Origin: a bacterium
Lineage (GTDB): Bacteria > SZUA-79 > Acidulodesulfobacterales > Acidulodesulfobacteraceae
Direction: 5' to 3'
Length of the DNA stretch: 49,744 bases
Assembly (NCBI GenBank): GCA_021794475.1
Contig: JAJYQS010000068.1
Location: forward strand, 1,504 to 51,247
Part shown: piece by piece, positions 28,665 through 38,820 of the stretch
Layout of the letters: every line of letters starts with the position of its first letter
How positions within the stretch are numbered: position 1 is the stretch's first letter
Translations under genes and position numbers: made by a program
Notes under the pieces: model-generated
The model's database searches: none
The model's input: only the letters and a program-made list of their open reading frames with translations
Told to the model about the DNA's origin: nothing

Positions 28665-31283
28665 TTACGATTTTAATTCCGGGGCCGGCTTGGCAAGAAA
28701 AAAGCCCTGTCCGTAATCTACGCCTAATTTTGTAACTTCCTGCAATATTTCATCATTTTCTATAAATTCTGCAATAGTTTTTATACCGACTTCTTTTGCT
28801 ATGGAAACAGAACTTATTACAAAAGCCCTGTCTATTTTATCTGTCATAATGCTTCTTATAAATTCACCGTCAATTTTGATAAAATCAACCGGGAAATGTT
28901 TAATATACAGAAATGAACTGAAACCGGAACCGAAATCATCTACCGCAAACCTGAAACCTTCGTACTTCAAATTGGTAACAAACTTTTCAAGCAGTGTTAT
29001 ATTTTTAATAGTTTCTCTTTCCGTAAGTTCAAAAACTATTCTATCGGGATTTATATTATATTTTAAAATGATATCTTTAACATTTTTAATAAACTCGGAA
29101 AGAATCAATGATTTTGGAGACAAATTAACAAATAAAAACCCGTCGAAATCGCTTTCTTTCATAATTTTAAACGCTTTTTCCATTAATAAAAGGTCTAATT
29201 TATGCGCTACACCTATTGCCTCAGCCACTTCTATAAATTCACCCGCCGAAAGCGTTGCCCCTTTATAATTTATTCTCATAAGAAGTTCATTGGCAAGAAT
29301 TTTACTGTCTTTTAATCCGACAATAGGTTGAAAATAAGGGACGATGACTTCTGTTCTATTTAATGCGTCTATTACCATATTGCTCTTTTCCCGAGCTTCC
29401 TGATATACAGTAATCATGTCTTCTTCCTGTGCGACATAAACCTGATTTTTGCCTTTAGCCTTCGCTTTGTACATCATATTGTCCGTAAGCATAAAAATAT
29501 CTTTTTCAGTAGCTGCGGACTGAGGATATGATGCAACGCCTATTGAAGACGTTATTCCAATATTTTTTTTGCTATCGGGATATTTTAGAAGCAAAGTTCC
29601 GATTTTCTCTCTGATTCTTTCGGCTATCATATAAGCCTGCTCTATACCCGCCCCCGGCAGAATTATCGCAAACTCATCTCCTCCATATCTTGCTAAGATA
29701 TCCCCGCTTCTTTTTAATTTATTTAAAATATCTGCAACATTCTGAAGCATTGTATCTCCGAAATTATGCCCATACATATCGTTAATAAATTTAAAATTAT
29801 CTAAGTCTATAAACAATAAACTGAAGATAGAATTATTTCTGTTGGCTCTTTCCGCTTCGTAATGAAGGAATTCATTAAAAACTCTCTGATTATAAAGTTC
29901 CGTAAGTCCGTCTCTCGTAGCATAATATTCAAGGTCTTTGGTATATTTGTAAATTGCTTTTATTGAACCTATGACATTCAAAAGCGTCGTCAAAACACTA
30001 TTTATTACTAACTCTCTGGTACTGTCAAGAGATTCTTCGGATTGGACTCCTATCCCGACAATGCCGCCAATATGAGGCGTGTTCAGTATTATTTTTTTAG
30101 TTTTAACTGAAATATCGTCAGCAGTCAATTCAGGCAGTTTAATCTTTTTATCGGCTATATTATGGGTTATTATTATATTTTCCATATCTTTTAATAAAGG
30201 ACTGAAACTGTCGTGGTATATATTTTTATTTACCATTTCGTTGAATATTATTTTTGTTTTTTCTGTCGGTTCCCCTTTCCAGAAAACTTCTAATTCTATA
30301 AGCTCTTCATCCTGCACGAATATTGAAAATACATTATAAACTTTAATAATATTATTCATTTCAATCAGCAGATTAAAAACATGCTCTTTCCAGTCTTTTA
30401 CCACTTCGGAAGTTATTATAAAACGTTCCAGAAGTTTGATTTCAAATTCCAATATGTCTTTATCTATAGCAACATCTCTGAGTTTTGACGAAAGTTTTAC
30501 GATACCCTGATAAACATTGTTAAACTCTTCAAATTTAAGGTCGGAGAGATTGGACTCTAACATTTTTAAATCTCTGACGGTATTAATATTTTCAACTTCT
30601 TTATTAATACTGTTTATGCCTTTTTTAACGGATTTTCTTAAAATAAAAGCTACAAATGCTCCGCCTATAATAGGCAGCAAGAATATAAGTATTAAAAGCG
30701 CATAATAATAATATTGAATTTTTTTAGTTAAATAAACAGGGTTGAATGAAACTTCAATGACGCCGTTAACATCGCCTATCTTAGCCATAGTATGACATTG
30801 AAGACATAGCTCTTTATCTTTTAGCGGATAGGCATAAACGGACAAACCTTTGAGTTTTTTATATTCAGGCAAACCTGTTAAAAATGACTGCGTTACGACA
30901 GAATTCTCGGCAGGCTGAGAAATTTTACCGAACTGCTTAGAAACAATTTTACCTCTGAAGATACTTACATTTACCATTTTTTCAGAATCAGAGGATTTTT
31001 TTAACGCTCTTATAAATTCGGCAACCTGCTTTTCATTCCATCCTCTTTTCATTACCTGAAACATAGCATTAAATGTTTCATCTGCAATATAAGAACTTGT
31101 AATCTTTGTTCCGGTATTAATTATTTTATTGCTGAAATTTGATAATAACAAGGCGGATACCGCAGCAATCAGGATAGAAACAGATATCGCTATAGATAAA
31201 ATAAACTTATCCAACCGTTTGAATTTAAACAGTTTAAGTATAATATTTCTTGCAAATTTGATTATATTATGAAAGTAATTCAT
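28665..31283 (-). CDS. Membrane c-type-heme sensor with GAF, GGDEF and EAL domains
   Basis: An 872-residue c-di-GMP signalling protein. Membrane helices at about 27-48 and 192-214 enclose a periplasmic domain of about 140 residues with one heme-c motif, CLQCH (C160, C163, H164), in a Tll0287/DUF3365-like context, suggesting redox, NO or oxygen sensing. Inside the cell come a linker helix, a GAF-like region (about 285-440), GGDEF (534-538, with the I-site RSGD at 525-528) and EAL (about 645-870). EAL residues are present: E666 in NELLMR, ELTERE, DDFGSG at 782, KIDG at 803, E839. Both catalytic halves therefore look active. I chose ATG 31283 over the longest frame (31349) because AGGAAG is correctly spaced; it overlaps the upstream thioredoxin-like gene by 17 bases. 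Confidence 0.9.
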   Translation of the reverse strand: MNYFHNIIKFARNIILKLFKFKRLDKFILSIAISVSILIAAVSALLLSNFSNKIINTGTKITSSYIADETFNAMFQVMKRGWNEKQVAEFIRALKKSSDSEKMVNVSIFRGKIVSKQFGKISQPAENSVVTQSFLTGLPEYKKLKGLSVYAYPLKDKELCLQCHTMAKIGDVNGVIEVSFNPVYLTKKIQYYYYALLILIFLLPIIGGAFVAFILRKSVKKGINSINKEVENINTVRDLKMLESNLSDLKFEEFNNVYQGIVKLSSKLRDVAIDKDILEFEIKLLERFIITSEVVKDWKEHVFNLLIEMNNIIKVYNVFSIFVQDEELIELEVFWKGEPTEKTKIIFNEMVNKNIYHDSFSPLLKDMENIIITHNIADKKIKLPELTADDISVKTKKIILNTPHIGGIVGIGVQSEESLDSTRELVINSVLTTLLNVIGSIKAIYKYTKDLEYYATRDGLTELYNQRVFNEFLHYEAERANRNNSIFSLLFIDLDNFKFINDMYGHNFGDTMLQNVADILNKLKRSGDILARYGGDEFAIILPGAGIEQAYMIAERIREKIGTLLLKYPDSKKNIGITSSIGVASYPQSAATEKDIFMLTDNMMYKAKAKGKNQVYVAQEEDMITVYQEAREKSNMVIDALNRTEVIVPYFQPIVGLKDSKILANELLMRINYKGATLSAGEFIEVAEAIGVAHKLDLLLMEKAFKIMKESDFDGFLFVNLSPKSLILSEFIKNVKDIILKYNINPDRIVFELTERETIKNITLLEKFVTNLKYEGFRFAVDDFGSGFSSFLYIKHFPVDFIKIDGEFIRSIMTDKIDRAFVISSVSIAKEVGIKTIAEFIENDEILQEVTKLGVDYGQGFFLAKPAPELKS

Positions 31284-31608
31284 TGGCATCTTCCTTGGTA
31301 GGAATACCCACATATGAAAGTTTGCCGTCGATAATAGTTGAAGGAACACTTCTTATATACAAGCTGATAGATATCCGTCTGCCTTCAGGTTCTGAAACAT
31401 CAATCAGTCTATAAGTAAAATCCTTCCTTTCATCAAACAACGTTTTCCAGACTCTGTCGGCAGGAACACATTCTTCGCACCATTTCGAGACAAGCAATAT
31501 GACTTCATGCTTAATTGCTTTTTTGTTTTCCTTAGCACTGTCGGCAGCACCGCCGATATTATCATTGCCGTCTCTATGTGCACCGCTGTCTTCATTATTA
31601 CTATTCAT
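31267..31608 (-). CDS. Thioredoxin-like protein
   Basis: A 113-residue thioredoxin-fold protein. After a polar, low-complexity N-terminus (residues 1-32) come the strand HEVILLVSKWCEECVPADR with a CxxC site (C44, C47), a second strand FTYRLIDVSEPEG, the cis-proline VPSTIID (P89) and the last strand GKLSYVGIPT. CEEC is an unusual active-site pair, more acidic than CGPC, which would raise the thiol pKa. No signal peptide, so it is cytosolic as annotated. It overlaps the start of the heme-c GGDEF-EAL gene, so the two are translationally coupled; a redox link between them is possible but unproven. Confidence 0.8.
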   Translation of the reverse strand: MNSNNEDSGAHRDGNDNIGGAADSAKENKKAIKHEVILLVSKWCEECVPADRVWKTLFDERKDFTYRLIDVSEPEGRRISISLYIRSVPSTIIDGKLSYVGIPTKEDANELLS

Positions 31609-31804: not shown

Positions 31805-32254
31805 TCACTGACTGGAACACCTCATACATTGAATCTGCTCTTTTATAATTTTTTCTCTGTAGAGCTCAATGGCTTCTTTACCTGTTACAAGAAATTTGAG
31901 TTCATCTAAATTAGAAGCTTTAACTTTTGTCACCCAACCGTCGGTATAAGGAAGTATATTTAATAAAAGAGGATCGTTCAAAAGCTTTTCATTGACCTCT
32001 ATTATTTCACCTGAAACAGGCGACGGGATAGGTCCAACCCATTTTCCGCTTTCTATCGTAGCCGTATTGCCGCGTCTATTAACCATTGCTCCTATTTTTT
32101 TAAATGTAACATGAAGAATTTTCCCCGCCTGAGTCTGAGCAACATCAGTCATTCCTAAAATCACTATATTATTATCCACAGGTTTAGCCCATGTATCTTT
32201 TTCTGTATCGTAATAAATGTCTTCCGGTAACTCGCATCCTTGAACTTCAGCCAT
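31805..32254 (-). CDS. GcvH-like lipoyl-carrier protein, orphan
   Basis: A 149-residue lipoyl-domain protein of the glycine-cleavage H family. VILGMTDVAQTQAGKILHVT and the hairpin TIESGKWVGPIPSPVSGEII with the lipoylable Lys71 are clear. In the glycine cleavage H protein this reads ESVKA; the ESGKWVGP form marks a separate H-like branch. No gcvT, gcvP or lipoate ligase lies nearby, so a role outside glycine cleavage is likely. Related free-standing lipoate-binding proteins serve the sHdr sulfur-oxidation pathway, but no hdr genes are in the window. The C-terminal tail has an unusual CMRC motif (C143, C146), perhaps redox active. It is divergent from the hemerythrin gene, with a CRP/HcpR-like palindrome about 74 bases upstream of its start. 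Confidence 0.85.
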   Translation of the reverse strand: MAEVQGCELPEDIYYDTEKDTWAKPVDNNIVILGMTDVAQTQAGKILHVTFKKIGAMVNRRGNTATIESGKWVGPIPSPVSGEIIEVNEKLLNDPLLLNILPYTDGWVTKVKASNLDELKFLVTGKEAIELYREKIIKEQIQCMRCSSQ

Positions 32255-32599
32255 AGCATCTCCAAGTTTATATTTTATTATATTTATAATAATATTATAA
32301 ATAATAATTCTTCATTTTAAATATTTATGTGATTTTTATCACTGATATTTATATTATATATGATAAAATTTAAAAATGAATTAATATAAAACTAATATAA
32401 CTAATAAATACATCTTAATTTATATAATATATATAATAAATATAGAATAGAATATACAATAATATAATTTAAAATATTGTATCAGAATTAATCAAATTTA
32501 CAAAATTAAAAAATAAAAAGAATAAATTCACAATAGATAATGACAGCGAACATTATATTAATATTACATTTTAATATTGCATTATAACAGGAGAATATT
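32255..32599. other. Divergent regulatory region, GcvH-like / hemerythrin
   Basis: 345 bases, almost pure A/T apart from the palindrome at 32328-32343. It must hold the promoters for both directions. The hemerythrin gene has a good AGGAGAATATT ribosome-binding site at its right edge. No RNA gene or coding frame seen. Confidence 0.6.
32328..32343. promoter_or_regulatory. CRP/FNR-family (HcpR-like) binding site candidate
   Basis: TGTGA-N6-TCACT is one mismatch from the TGTGA-N6-TCACA palindrome used by CRP, and close to the motif of HcpR, a CRP-family regulator of nitrosative stress in delta-type proteobacteria. It stands out as GC-containing symmetry in an otherwise A/T-only region, between the lipoyl-protein and hemerythrin genes. 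Confidence 0.5.
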
Positions 32600-33094
32600 A
32601 TGGATACAATGTTGGATCCGATAGACGCATTAAAAAGCGATCATGAGGCAGTAAAGGTTGTTTTAGGAAATCTTGACGGTTATTTAAAAAAAATAGGAGG
32701 TCAGACATCCGATTCTCTGAGAAAAAATCTAATAAATCAGCTTCACGAAATTACTTCTTTTATTGATAAAGACCTTGAAATACATTTTAAAAAGGAAGAG
32801 AACGCTTTATTTCCCGTCCTTGGAAATTATATAGGGATAGAAACAGGACCAATTCACGTAATGCTTTTGGAACATGAACAGTCAAGACAGCTTTCTAAAG
32901 AATTTAAAGATGCTATAGCAGAATATTCAATAGACGGCAAGTACGGAAAGATCATATCGGAAGGAGACAGCCTGACACAGCTGCTATCGGAACATATAGA
33001 AAAAGAAGATAATATATTGTTTAATATGGCAGAAATGCAATTAAGCAATGAAGAAAAAAATGAAATTATGGACAAAATGAGGACTGTTAAATAA
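32600..33094 (+). CDS. Hemerythrin HHE-domain protein
   Basis: A 164-residue four-helix-bundle hemerythrin. The di-iron ligands follow the HHE pattern: H15 (LKSDHEAV), H62 and E66 (IHFKKEENALFPVL), a histidine in the third helix (H86 or H92 in IHVMLLEHEQSR), and H132 and E136 (LSEHIEKEDNILF). Such stand-alone cytosolic proteins bind O2 or NO, or repair Fe-S clusters as in RIC/ScdA. The next gene, 25 bases downstream and probably cotranscribed, encodes two DUF2249 domains; hemerythrin-DUF2249 pairing is common in denitrifiers and anaerobes. A HcpR-like site lies upstream. Confidence 0.9.
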   Translation: MDTMLDPIDALKSDHEAVKVVLGNLDGYLKKIGGQTSDSLRKNLINQLHEITSFIDKDLEIHFKKEENALFPVLGNYIGIETGPIHVMLLEHEQSRQLSKEFKDAIAEYSIDGKYGKIISEGDSLTQLLSEHIEKEDNILFNMAEMQLSNEEKNEIMDKMRTVK

Positions 33095-33119
33095 TTCAAT
33101 AAAAAATGAGGACAATAAA

Positions 33120-33659
33120 ATGCAAACGGAAAAATTAAAAAAAGTGAAATTAGACGTGAGAGAAGACATAGCAAAAGGGGCTGACCCGTTTCAAAAAATA
33201 ATGGAAGCGGTAAACTCTCTAAAAGATGGTGAAGCATTAGAGGTTATTAACAGTTTTGAACCTTTTCCGCTGTATTCCGTACTTAGAAACAAAGGATTTG
33301 AACATACCGCAAAACATTTTGACGGCGGATTTGAAATTACTTTCTATAAAACAGATAATCACAAAAACGAACCTGCTGGCGATGAAGATTGGAAAAATGA
33401 AAATAATTTCAATGACGATGATTTAAAAAAACTCGCCCACTGCAGAGAAACAGAGCTTGATGTTAGAGAATTAGAGCCTCCGCAGCCTCTTTTGAAGATT
33501 TTCGAGATTATTGAAATTATGGATAAAGACGAGGCATTATCTATAATTCACGACAGAAAACCGATACATTTATATCCGAGACTAAAAGATGCAGGATTTA
33601 AATTTTTAACAGAAGATATCGGAAACGATTTATATTCAATAAAAGTTTGGAGGAATTAG
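33120..33659 (+). CDS. Tandem DUF2249 domain protein
   Basis: A 179-residue protein made of two DUF2249 copies, about residues 8-77 and 112-179, each opening with LDVRE and containing the helix-loop DGEALEVINSFEPFPLY or DEALSIIHDRKPIHLYPRL. An acidic linker joins them. The fold is TusA-like; the domain often accompanies hemerythrin, nitric-oxide reductase-like proteins and DUF59 proteins, and its function is not settled. The strong GAGGAC ribosome-binding site and 25-base gap put it in one operon with hemerythrin. The stop is 18 bases from that of the convergent membrane-protein gene. A single protein with two fused domains is less usual than one domain. Confidence 0.85.
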   Translation: MQTEKLKKVKLDVREDIAKGADPFQKIMEAVNSLKDGEALEVINSFEPFPLYSVLRNKGFEHTAKHFDGGFEITFYKTDNHKNEPAGDEDWKNENNFNDDDLKKLAHCRETELDVRELEPPQPLLKIFEIIEIMDKDEALSIIHDRKPIHLYPRLKDAGFKFLTEDIGNDLYSIKVWRN

Positions 33660-33677
33660 AAATTTTTAAGACATTTT

Positions 33678-34952
33678 TCAGGCATTTTTTTCCATGATTA
33701 ATAAATTCATGAAAAATATTAACGAAGCCGCTGCCAGTATTCCGGATAAAATCCTTATTAAACTGACATCTGTAATAAGTAAAGCAAAAGACATCACCGG
33801 AATAGCCGCTATAAATAATATTGCATCAAAATATTGAAGATACTTTTTCTGCATATTGCTTATTAAACCTTTATAAGCTCCTTTTTTAACCTTTTCGAAT
33901 TTTTTAAGGCTTATGAGAAATGGAAATATTTTATGCAAAAAACCTACTATTACCATACCTGCATAACCAAATAATCCGATAAATCCAAACGCATAATAAA
34001 TGCCCTGATTTTCAGCTATTGCTCTTGCCGGTAAAAATAATATTATATTTCCGGCAAAAACCGCAGATAGTAAAAAAATAATACCGGCATACAGGTAAAA
34101 AATTGTAATATCCAATTTTTTCTTAATCCTGCCGTTCATTAATTTGTAAAATTCAAAAGAAAATAAGATTATTCCCGCCGATAATAAAAAATCACCTATA
34201 TAAAAGAGATTTTGTCCAAATGAACTATAGAAACCGTTTGCTATTGACGATATTATTATCAGAATTATTCCTAAATTTAATAATACAAAATCTGTTATCC
34301 ATATAAAATGTCCGGGCTTTTTTGTCATATAAAACATAGGAAGCAGGCGGTAAGATATTGCAATAAACAGCATAACGATAAAACCGCCGGACATAATATA
34401 AATATGGCTCGTTAAAAAATTAAAAATATATTTGCCTATTATGTTATTATAATAAAAAGAAACAGCCATGTACGCACCTGCTAAAAGCCCGATAAAAAGA
34501 TATATATAAGCAAAAAGAATGCCGAAACCGGTGTAATCCCATTTTTTTATTTTCTTCAAACTTATCATAATATTTAAATCATAAATAAAGACGGCTATAA
34601 ATAAAAGCACGCCTCCGGACGCTATAAGCTCAGCATTAAAATAATGCATTCCCGCAATAAAAATTATAAGGGATGCGGTATAGCCATAATAAACGTAATA
34701 AAATATTTTATCAAAGGCTATCTTTACGCCGAGCGCCACAGGAATCAGCATATACGAAGCGCCCATTATTACCATAAGAAGGAAGCCCAGCGTGAAAATA
34801 TGGGTCAGGGCAATAATTTTTGTATTCATAAAAAAATAAGTCAAAAAACTGTTTGAATCAATCATCATATAACAAAAAAACAGTATTAGAAATATAGATG
34901 CTGTTTTAATATGCTTTAAAGCGATGTTGACAGAGCTATCTCCGGAATTCAT
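33678..34952 (-). CDS. Heme-copper-oxidase subunit I-like membrane protein
   Basis: A 424-residue integral membrane protein with about eleven to twelve helices. IIALTHIFTLGFLLMVIMGA (His51) near the second helix, SHIYIMSGGFIVML (His183) and FGFIGLFGYAGMVIVGFLHK with a late His resemble the helices of cbb3/NorB-like subunit I proteins that hold heme or sense NO. The full six-histidine set of an active oxidase is not evident, so it may be a NnrS/NorB-like helper rather than a true oxidase. I use ATG 34952 (GGGAG spaced 8 bases) instead of the longer frame from 35021, which would overlap the DUF59 gene. It lies directly downstream of the DUF59 gene and converges on the hemerythrin-DUF2249 operon. 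Confidence 0.75.
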   Translation of the reverse strand: MNSGDSSVNIALKHIKTASIFLILFFCYMMIDSNSFLTYFFMNTKIIALTHIFTLGFLLMVIMGASYMLIPVALGVKIAFDKIFYYVYYGYTASLIIFIAGMHYFNAELIASGGVLLFIAVFIYDLNIMISLKKIKKWDYTGFGILFAYIYLFIGLLAGAYMAVSFYYNNIIGKYIFNFLTSHIYIMSGGFIVMLFIAISYRLLPMFYMTKKPGHFIWITDFVLLNLGIILIIISSIANGFYSSFGQNLFYIGDFLLSAGIILFSFEFYKLMNGRIKKKLDITIFYLYAGIIFLLSAVFAGNIILFLPARAIAENQGIYYAFGFIGLFGYAGMVIVGFLHKIFPFLISLKKFEKVKKGAYKGLISNMQKKYLQYFDAILFIAAIPVMSFALLITDVSLIRILSGILAAASLIFFMNLLIMEKNA

Positions 34953-34992
34953 TATTTGTTCTCCCAAATATATATAATATAATTTATCACTA

Positions 34993-35298
34993 TTATCTAT
35001 TTTGAAGCTTTTTAAGAACATCGGGTTTCAGCATAGAATAATTCCATTCAGGTTCCCATACAATATTGACTTCTGCATCTTGTACGCCTTCAATTTTTTT
35101 TAAAGATTCCTCTGTTTCAAATTTTAAAACATTACTCAACGGACATCCTCTTGACGTTAGAGTCATATTAAGAACTATTTTCTTATTTTGTTCGTCAATT
35201 TTTATATCATATATCAACCCGAGGTCAACAATATTTATTTCGAGCTCCGGATCTACAACGCTTTTCAAGTTTTCTAAAACACTTTCTTTTGTAAGCAT
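34993..35298 (-). CDS. DUF59/MIP18-family Fe-S assembly protein (SufT/PaaD-like)
   Basis: A 101-residue DUF59 protein. It begins MLTKESVLENLKSVVDPELE and continues NIVDLGLIYDI; the conserved Cys lies in MTLTSRGCPLSN, and VNIVWEPEW is the usual last strand. Family members (SufT, MIP18/CIA2, PaaD) help mature Fe-S clusters. The stop lies 40 bases before the membrane-protein ATG, so the two form an operon. GTG at 35304 is a possible alternative start; ATG 35298 fits the GGTG ribosome-binding site better. With hemerythrin and DUF2249 nearby, it points to Fe-S repair under oxygen or NO stress. A second FNR/CRP-like site lies about 150 bases upstream. Confidence 0.9.
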   Translation of the reverse strand: MLTKESVLENLKSVVDPELEINIVDLGLIYDIKIDEQNKKIVLNMTLTSRGCPLSNVLKFETEESLKKIEGVQDAEVNIVWEPEWNYSMLKPDVLKKLQNR

Positions 35299-35450
35299 AA
35301 TCACACCGCTGTTATTTTTTAATTTTTTTTAATAATATTTTAAAGATATTTAAAGAATATTTAATAATTGTTTGCAACCGCAGATGTTAAATATTAGCGC
35401 TTTTTGTATACCCTTATATTTATATATTATAGCAATAAAAATAAAAATAA

Positions 35451-35466
35451 ATTGATTATTATCACA
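35451..35466. promoter_or_regulatory. Second CRP/FNR/HcpR-like site candidate
   Basis: ATTGA-N6-TCACA; read with its flanks it is TTGAT-N4-ATCAC followed by AA, which also matches FNR (TTGAT-N4-ATCAA) at all but one position. It lies about 24 bases before the -35 of the plus-strand promoter and about 150 bases upstream of the minus-strand DUF59 gene. Its resemblance to the site at 32328 suggests one regulator covers the whole cluster. Confidence 0.45.
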
Positions 35467-35489
35467 ATTTTTTTTTATTTTTTGCCTGC

Positions 35490-35518
35490 TTGACATCTGC
35501 GATAATTTTAGATAGTAT
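35490..35518 (+). promoter_or_regulatory. Candidate promoter for the TPR-protein gene
   Basis: A perfect -35 TTGACA (35490-35495) with a weak -10 TAGTAT after 17 bases (35513-35518); TATAAA at 35516 after 20 bases is an alternative. It would give a leader of about 130 bases. Confidence 0.4.
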
Positions 35519-35652
35519 AAATAATAAAGCGGTACTGCAATCTGTTTCTTCTATATAATTACATTAACCATAAATAATATTAAAATAAACATTAAAATAT
35601 CTAAATAAAATTGAATAAAATAAACATTAAATATTAAAATGGAGAATTTATT

Positions 35653-36033
35653 ATGAATTTAATATCTGAAAGATTAAAAAATATTATTATTATTTCTTGT
35701 TTAATAATATTTTCAATTGGCGTTTTTAATATATTTATGCAGTCAAATGCCTACGCTCTTAAAATTAATGTAAAAAGCCCTTCTTTCCAATTTAAAAAGG
35801 GTATGGGCGCATTGAAAGGCGGATATAATTACACGGCAATACAGCACTTTCAAAAGGCTATACTTTTAAAACCGCATTTTGCTGAAGCATGGGGAGAAAT
35901 GGGAATTGCCCTTCATCGGTTAGGTTTTCCATCTCTTGGCATTGTTTCGCTCAAAAAAGCGCTGTCATATAATCCAAGGCTCGTATGGGCAAAAAAATTT
36001 CTGAAGAAATATCTAGCAGAGCCAGGTAGGTAA
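35653..36033 (+). CDS. Small exported TPR-repeat protein
   Basis: A 126-residue protein with an N-terminal signal or anchor segment (about 10-30: NIIIISCLIIFSIGVFNIF, possible cleavage after AYA near residue 35) and two TPR-like helix pairs: YNYTAIQHFQKAILLKPHFAEAWGEMGIAL and the matching GFPSLGIVSLKKALSYNPRLVWAKKFL. Small periplasmic TPR proteins usually act as scaffolds; partners are unknown. GGAGAA supports the ATG. It has its own promoter candidate, next to a CRP/FNR-like site shared with the divergent DUF59 gene, so it might be part of the same stress response. Confidence 0.8.
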   Translation: MNLISERLKNIIIISCLIIFSIGVFNIFMQSNAYALKINVKSPSFQFKKGMGALKGGYNYTAIQHFQKAILLKPHFAEAWGEMGIALHRLGFPSLGIVSLKKALSYNPRLVWAKKFLKKYLAEPGR

Positions 36034-38547: not shown

Positions 38548-38820
38548 ATGGAATACAGCATGCCGCTTGGCAATTTATTGGATGTTATCAATGATTTTAT
38601 TGAATCAAACGACGAATTTTCGTATGAAGAGATTATTGAATTATTAAATAATCACACGATAGAACTTAACTGTGTAGAAGACGATGATGATTTTTTATGT
38701 TCGCTTTTAGAAGAAATTTCTGAAGATTCCGAAGAAGAAGAAGAAGAAGAAGATGATGATGAAGAAGAAGATGATGATGAGGAAGAGGAGGATGAAGACA
38801 ATGACGACGACAAATTTTAA
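38548..38820 (+). CDS. Small protein with an extremely acidic C-terminal tail
   Basis: A 90-residue protein I do not recognise. Residues 1-55 look folded and helical (MPLGNLLDVINDFIESNDEF, YEEIIELLNNH, DFLCSLLEEIS) with two cysteines. Residues about 56-88 are almost only Glu and Asp, built from GAA/GAT codon repeats. A textbook ribosome-binding site (GGAGGTG, 7 bases before the ATG) argues that it is a real, well-expressed gene. Acidic tails occur in nucleic-acid mimics, histone-like chaperones and metal or proton buffers; none can be assigned. It stands alone between tRNA-Ser and the pyk stop, on the opposite strand to pyk. Confidence 0.7.
   Translation: MEYSMPLGNLLDVINDFIESNDEFSYEEIIELLNNHTIELNCVEDDDDFLCSLLEEISEDSEEEEEEEDDDEEEDDDEEEEDEDNDDDKF

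Follow-up and report, generated by a model that had tools for sequence, protein, structure and literature searches.

Two of the gene families considered here have a recorded link to nitric oxide (NO). In 2005, DUF2249 (COG4309) was reported together with norB, and the regulator HcpR together with hcp and hemerythrin-like genes (PMC1274295); later reports placed DUF2249 in haloarchaeal denitrification (PMC11218638) and in Thermus (PMC6282519). Here we analyzed a stretch of 49,744 nucleotides, the window (GenBank assembly GCA_021794475.1, contig JAJYQS010000068.1, positions 1,504 to 51,247 of the forward strand), from the genus Candidatus Acididesulfobacter, order Acidulodesulfobacterales. A search with its DUF2249 protein led to a relative, Candidatus Acididesulfobacter diazotrophicus, of the same acid-mine order (PMC6776010). 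The window carries a quartet of genes in two convergent pairs, hemerythrin-DUF2249 on the plus strand and membrane protein-DUF59 on the minus strand; a CRP-type palindrome lies at each outer end. We consider it likely that these two operons are the core of an HcpR-type nitrosative-stress regulon, and the quartet very probably serves in defense against NO.

The quartet and its putative operators

Genes were identified from open reading frames and Pfam scans of the window. Together with a fold model for the membrane protein and a motif search, these confirmed the two convergent operons, the four families, and the outer palindromes proposed in an initial annotation of the DNA:

32328-32343, CRP/HcpR-type putative operator TGTGATTTTTATCACT, upstream of hemerythrin-DUF2249 (motif search, orthologue conservation)
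32600-33094, plus strand, hemerythrin-like di-iron protein of the RIC/YtfE C-domain type without ScdA_N (PF01814, 1.4e-19)
33120-33659, plus strand, tandem DUF2249 protein with two TusA-like domains (PF10006, 2.3e-30, 104.7 bits)
33678-34952, minus strand, 12-helix membrane protein of heme-copper-oxidase homology (model and alignment; no Pfam match)
34993-35304, minus strand, DUF59/MIP18-type iron-sulfur (Fe-S) assembly factor (PF01883, 8.7e-17, 61.6 bits)
35451-35466, read on the minus strand, CRP/HcpR-type putative operator TGTGATAATAATCAAT, upstream of DUF59-membrane protein (motif search, orthologue conservation)

The 447-amino-acid open reading frame of the membrane protein begins too far upstream, the orthologues beginning at 34952; the start of the DUF59 gene is probably the ATG at 35298.

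Orthologous clusters (loci of 4 to 13 kb) were taken from genomes of the family. The motif TGTGAY-N4-RTCA lies upstream of the hemerythrin gene linked to DUF2249 in 26/26 of these loci and of DUF59 in 25/27, whereas resampling of this AT-rich sequence with a Markov model predicts 0.02 and 0.00, respectively. Both DUF59 exceptions carry recognizable one-mismatch versions, as read from the listed sequences, and no further match occurs elsewhere within these loci. Conservation of the operators at the two operons extends over about 28 genomes. The initial annotation had held that its reading would fail if the sites were not conserved upstream of orthologues; they are conserved across the whole family of uncultured acid-mine bacteria, and the reading was not refuted. 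The first base of the hemerythrin site lies 272 bp before the start codon in the window and approximately 80 to 150 bp before it in most other genera.

The motif was also searched by pattern genome-wide, as the initial annotation had suggested. The broad pattern named there, TGTGAN6TCACA, with one mismatch allowed, returned 16 sites compared to 13 for the reversed control and was uninformative alone, whereas the refined pattern TGTGAY-N4-RTCAMT discriminated signal from control. The 16-base pattern TGTGAYNNNNRTCAMT had 63 matches in 30 whole genomes, or about two per genome, and 49 of the 63 were at the two quartet positions; the reversed pattern had 4. In 51/51 sites, TGTGA was followed by T or C, with A or G as the partner base. 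Sites inside genes in the window genome (G000; contigs C24, C29, and C30) and in genome G001 were judged to be chance matches.

Two further genes are transcribed away from the quartet:

31805-32254, minus strand, GcvH-like lipoyl protein, divergent outer neighbor (Pfam scan)
35653-36033, plus strand, TPR protein, divergent outer neighbor (Pfam scan)

Their divergence from the outer ends was correctly described in the initial annotation, but consistent membership in the module was not borne out, since rearranged genomes separate them from the sites. In L067 and L068 the TPR gene is elsewhere and the site remains with DUF59; in L070 and L089 gcvH is elsewhere without a site and the DUF2249-linked hemerythrin retains its own. 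The latter two loci also provide an internal control, a second hemerythrin copy that lies beside gcvH and has no site. All loci in which the TPR protein was found belong to the window genus. Because the sites follow DUF59 and the DUF2249-linked hemerythrin, the targets are hemerythrin-DUF2249 and DUF59-membrane protein, and the TPR and GcvH-like genes probably lie outside the module. A gene for a GGDEF-EAL protein (28665-31349 in the window) is divergent from and adjoins the hemerythrin gene in several relatives (L070, L071, L078, L087, L089, and L090), where the operator stands between the two. Farther along the window, a 90-amino-acid open reading frame (38548-38820) ends in a long Asp/Glu run.

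Candidate regulator and further genes under the motif

A search for an HcpR-like gene, also suggested by the initial annotation, identified one conserved Crp/Fnr-family protein with a recognition helix of the HcpR/CRP type. This protein (214 amino acids; L001:1015-1659) is the only HTH_Crp_2 match in the 92%-complete window genome, and orthologues were found in 27/30 genomes, including 19/19 of the good ones. Its recognition helix, IADIAGTAREVVSR (AREVVSR; R-E-x3-R), is invariant in the 27 orthologues. The residues R, E, and R at helix positions 1, 2, and 6 match those that Desulfovibrio HcpR uses for TGTGA-N6-TCACA (PMC5701242), and the helix also agrees with the covariation rule R180-G3/E181-A6 (PMC1274295). 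Beyond the helix, the comparison covered a ranking of structure hits. On alignment to the CRP of Mycobacterium tuberculosis, the residues that contact cyclic AMP (cAMP) in that protein are not retained in the candidate regulator, which suggests that its signal is probably not cAMP. The HcpR1 of Desulfovibrio desulfuricans binds heme (PMC5701242). The candidate regulator has a single cysteine and therefore no FNR-type Fe-S motif.

The motif recurs upstream of a small set of other genes. Ahead of the single hcp gene of the window genome, TGTGATTAAAATCATA lies at a distance of 266 bp from the start, and in the family TGTGAY-N4-RTCA precedes 12/12 hcp genes with a recognizable start, as the initial annotation anticipated. 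Four Prismane hits were left out of this count: one incomplete gene and three that lack the Hcp start motif, presumably carbon monoxide dehydrogenases, which share the Pfam family. A 140-amino-acid COX1 homologue that comprises only the last four helices of a heme-copper oxidase and has a TM10-like (transmembrane helix 10) HVH motif is a separate gene in most family genomes (L249:1194-1616, L257, and L262 to L264); the operator or, in two cases, a one-base variant stands upstream in 6/6. The motif also precedes a DUF2249-ScdA_N-hemerythrin fusion (L256), a protein present in two genomes, and a perfect palindrome, TGTGATAAAAATCACA, stands upstream of both a NosZ-type gene (L258:3-1295, genome G010) and a CBS-HPP pair (L255:1695-2836, G001). 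Finally, a family of proteins of approximately 180 amino acids (MKTINDIFLNYLSSF...) with no Pfam match has the operator approximately 80 to 120 bp upstream in 8/9 readable cases (L159:3073-3615, L156:3038-3610, L164 to L170, L177, and others); in two genomes its gene adjoins cydA. The inclusion of hcp, the single-unit oxidase homologue, ScdA/RIC-type proteins, NosZ, and HPP supports the initial annotation's suggestion of NO handling and points to NO or nitrogen oxides rather than oxygen.

Two side observations concern genes of this kind. A more distant copy of the 180-amino-acid family lies at a contig edge of the window genome (G000:C69). In two close relatives (L248:1505 and L250:1611), the operator occurs 135 to 144 bp upstream of a gene for a 308-amino-acid protein with no Pfam match, which is followed by a BcrAD/BadFG-type ATPase; the pair is possibly a double-cubane-cluster-like reductase.

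The four proteins and what the quartet may do

The di-iron ligand pattern of the hemerythrin (H15, H62xxxE66, H92, and H132xxxE136) is kept in almost all of 31 sequences. The protein matches YtfE structures (E value, 1.2e-4) and scores 47 bits (2.5e-12) against the RIC family TIGR03652, below the cut-off of 204.7; the Pfam scan found no ScdA_N domain in it. The second half of the DUF2249 protein is also TusA-like by Pfam, and its model is similar to TusA and TsuB, the E values being weak. None of its columns conserved at ≥90% contains cysteine, and the catalytic cysteine of TusA (CPxP) is absent from them. The membrane protein model has 12 helices (predicted template-modeling score, 0.79), and its best Foldseek matches are cbb3 oxidase and the NorB of cNOR, with template-modeling scores of up to 0.73. 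In a nine-row alignment its only invariant histidines are H51 (TM2), H183 (TM6), and H14 (TM1). Of the six histidines that bind metal and heme in oxidases, the TM7 pair and the TM10 HxH are missing, and therefore the protein has no usual binuclear center; it could hold one heme between TM2 and TM6. Sequence searches with the membrane protein and the DUF2249 protein against the PDB returned nothing useful. The DUF59 protein belongs to PF01883, has an invariant cysteine in a GCP motif, and scores below the curated SUF_assoc cut-off.

The membrane protein occurs in 59/386 genomes (E value up to 1e-8). Many distant loci (L225 to L229, L231 to L233, L239, and L100 to L103) have the genes for DUF2249, the membrane protein, and DUF59 side by side, and some distant loci also include the hemerythrin, alone or fused (L226, L228, L236, and L237). 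A Bacteroidetes locus (L101) adds the NO reductase qNor, a single-domain DUF2249 protein, a DUF1858-DUF2249 protein, and Rrf2, and in a high-GC lineage protoglobin genes lie inside the DUF2249/oxidase-homology cluster (L243:4472-5317 and L093:6007-6843). No full-length COX1/NOR was found in seven genomes of the window genus, where the quartet is kept; the quartet is therefore independent of the presence of an NO reductase. The constancy of DUF2249 and the oxidase-homology protein within the regulon of such a genus argues that these two act on NO stress themselves and not just on NO reductase maturation.

From the families, the fold, the ligand pattern, the conserved operators, and the motif common to the regulon, we infer an effector, a direction of regulation, protein activities, and a docking arrangement as follows. 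A single Crp/Fnr-family activator, probably NO-responsive via a bound cofactor such as heme, would bind TGTGAY-N4-RTCA(M) boxes and induce hcp, hemerythrin-DUF2249, and DUF59-membrane protein, along with the single-unit oxidase homologue, DUF2249-ScdA-hemerythrin, NosZ, and CBS-HPP where these are present. Hcp would turn NO to N2O in the cytoplasm, and the RIC-type protein would handle nitrite or NO, or iron at damaged centers; YtfE and Hcp of Escherichia coli are co-regulated and have been proposed to act in combination (PMC9052748). DUF59 may carry or rebuild Fe-S clusters, consistent with the support that SufT, a DUF59 protein, gives to Fe-S maturation (PMC4982691). The membrane protein may bind NO or pass electrons from the quinone pool, and the cysteine-less TusA-like DUF2249 protein may be an adaptor through which the soluble di-iron protein docks to it. 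Nitrous acid at low pH gives NO chemically (PMC10949509) and is a plausible source of NO in acid mine water. In such iron-rich water, where nitrite would yield NO, the set would protect sulfur-metabolizing cells even without denitrification.

Several points weigh against an HcpR-type NO regulon with the quartet as its core. The gene for the regulator lies apart from its putative targets, and no site was found upstream of it, so autoregulation is not supported. The predicted link between regulator and motif relies only on recognition-helix logic and on the protein being the sole HTH_Crp_2 match, in a genome that is 92% complete; a second, divergent Crp/Fnr protein is present in some relatives. 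Fewer than half of the genomes yielded hcp although the quartet and its sites persist, so hcp is not the constant member of the regulon. Ten genomes from other genera encode proteins of qNor size, and qNor was rejected as a regulon member, with no site upstream in the seven loci examined. All protein functions are assigned by family and context, and the adaptor role of DUF2249 is a conjecture prompted by its constant linkage and the loss of the catalytic cysteine.

Several other explanations were considered. The quartet may be mainly a system for repair and maturation of Fe-S or iron centers, built on the RIC-type hemerythrin and DUF59 with DUF2249 as an accessory and a membrane anchor, and with NO as only one trigger. 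The resemblance of the hemerythrin to YtfE/RIC, the Fe-S assembly family of DUF59, and the fusion of DUF2249 to ScdA_N-hemerythrin in two genomes fit this explanation, which overlaps with NO defense and is not mutually exclusive with it. However, the hemerythrin scores under the RIC cut-off without an ScdA_N domain, and the neighbors most widely kept elsewhere are DUF2249 and the oxidase-like protein, which stand beside an NO reductase in a Bacteroidetes genome; as the main function, repair is possible but rather unlikely. A more ambitious proposal, which we regard as improbable, is a single membrane-docked complex made up of DUF2249, DUF59, the RIC-type hemerythrin, the membrane protein, and, in genomes that have it, the separate single-unit HxH protein. 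It would bind or reduce NO and also repair metal centers, with no need of a classical NO reductase. If true, such a complex would be a new kind of NO-defense machine widespread in anaerobes.

An oxygen or redox regulon (FNR- or Rex-like) for microaerobic respiration or oxygen protection, in which the hemerythrin carries O2 and the membrane protein is an oxidase accessory, appears quite unlikely. Hemerythrins and oxidase-like folds are often O2 related, the 180-amino-acid target adjoins cydA in two genomes, and Acidulodesulfobacterales are thought to use cytochrome bd for O2 respiration (PMC6776010). Nevertheless, the targets hcp, NosZ, and ScdA/RIC have nitrogen-oxide functions, the membrane protein lacks oxidase ligands, and the one cysteine of the regulator leaves no FNR-type motif. 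Rex was rejected as the regulator because its box (TTGTGAA-N4-TTCACAA) needs an A after TGTGA, a base seen in none of the 51 sites. Equally doubtful is an unrecognized NO reductase or NO-binding heme complex, formed by the membrane protein and the co-regulated single-unit protein, that replaces qNor. The oxidase/NOR fold, the persistence of the quartet in a genus with no full-length COX1/NOR found, and the HVH motif and shared operator of the single-unit protein would suit it, but the 12-helix protein lacks the histidines for a second metal, and the window's own genome yielded no copy of the single-unit gene. A device that senses nitrate or nitrite, the role proposed for the Thermus DUF2249 proteins DrpA and DrpB, is very unlikely: the window protein is homologous to the double DUF2249 half of DrpB-like proteins, and DrpAB deletions alter nar control (PMC6282519), but the window protein has no DUF1858 domain, is itself a predicted regulated target, and has no nar genes linked in the stretches examined.

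Comparison with described systems

The window hemerythrin shares the ligand arrangement (H, HxxxE, H, HxxxE) and the YtfE structure match of RIC/YtfE/ScdA di-iron proteins and differs from them in domain content and equivalog score. For the membrane protein, the nearest described group is the heme-copper-oxidase-homology families, including NnrS, for which Pei et al. reportedly described, in 2014, a 12-helix oxidase fold and a conserved pair of histidines; four-helix units are said there to exist singly, too, as separate genes. The window protein matches no Pfam family and is not placed in any of these families. The DUF59 protein is single domain, like Staphylococcus SufT (PMC4982691), but is not in a suf locus.

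For DUF2249, the mechanism of which the initial annotation called undescribed, the link to NO is already known. COG4309 belongs to NsrR/NnrR/DNR regulons with norB (PMC1274295) and to haloarchaeal denitrification (PMC11218638), and it is likewise co-regulated with NO metabolism; in the window, by contrast, the protein is double domain, the regulator is of the CRP/HcpR type, and no NO reductase was found in the genus. In Thermus, expression of DrpA and DrpB, with single and tandem DUF2249 domains, is dependent on the denitrification master regulator DnrT (PMC6282519); DrpB has DUF1858 and acts on nar regulation, whereas the window protein lacks that domain.

The regulon resembles that of HcpR1 in Desulfovibrio and other deltaproteobacteria (PMC1274295, PMC5701242) in its TGTGA-N6-TCACA box, R-E-x3-R helix, control of hcp, and inclusion of hemerythrin-like genes, which are among the reported predicted targets. 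It differs in that its constant members are hemerythrin-DUF2249 and DUF59 with the oxidase homologue, hcp being patchy, and in that its half-sites are often asymmetric (TCACT or TCAAT); its candidate regulator resembles HcpR in the recognition helix. For 20 years, DUF2249 and oxidase-homology proteins have been associated with NO reductase but assigned no function. Here these two are the most constant predicted targets of a regulon that is very small and specific, and no NO reductase was found in the window genus. The quartet offers a compact, expressible gene set for testing and a regulatory connection to the NO that arises chemically in acid mine water. Relative to the described systems, what is new is the family-wide conservation of the operators, the small regulon with the quartet as its constant core, and the independence of the quartet from NO reductase.

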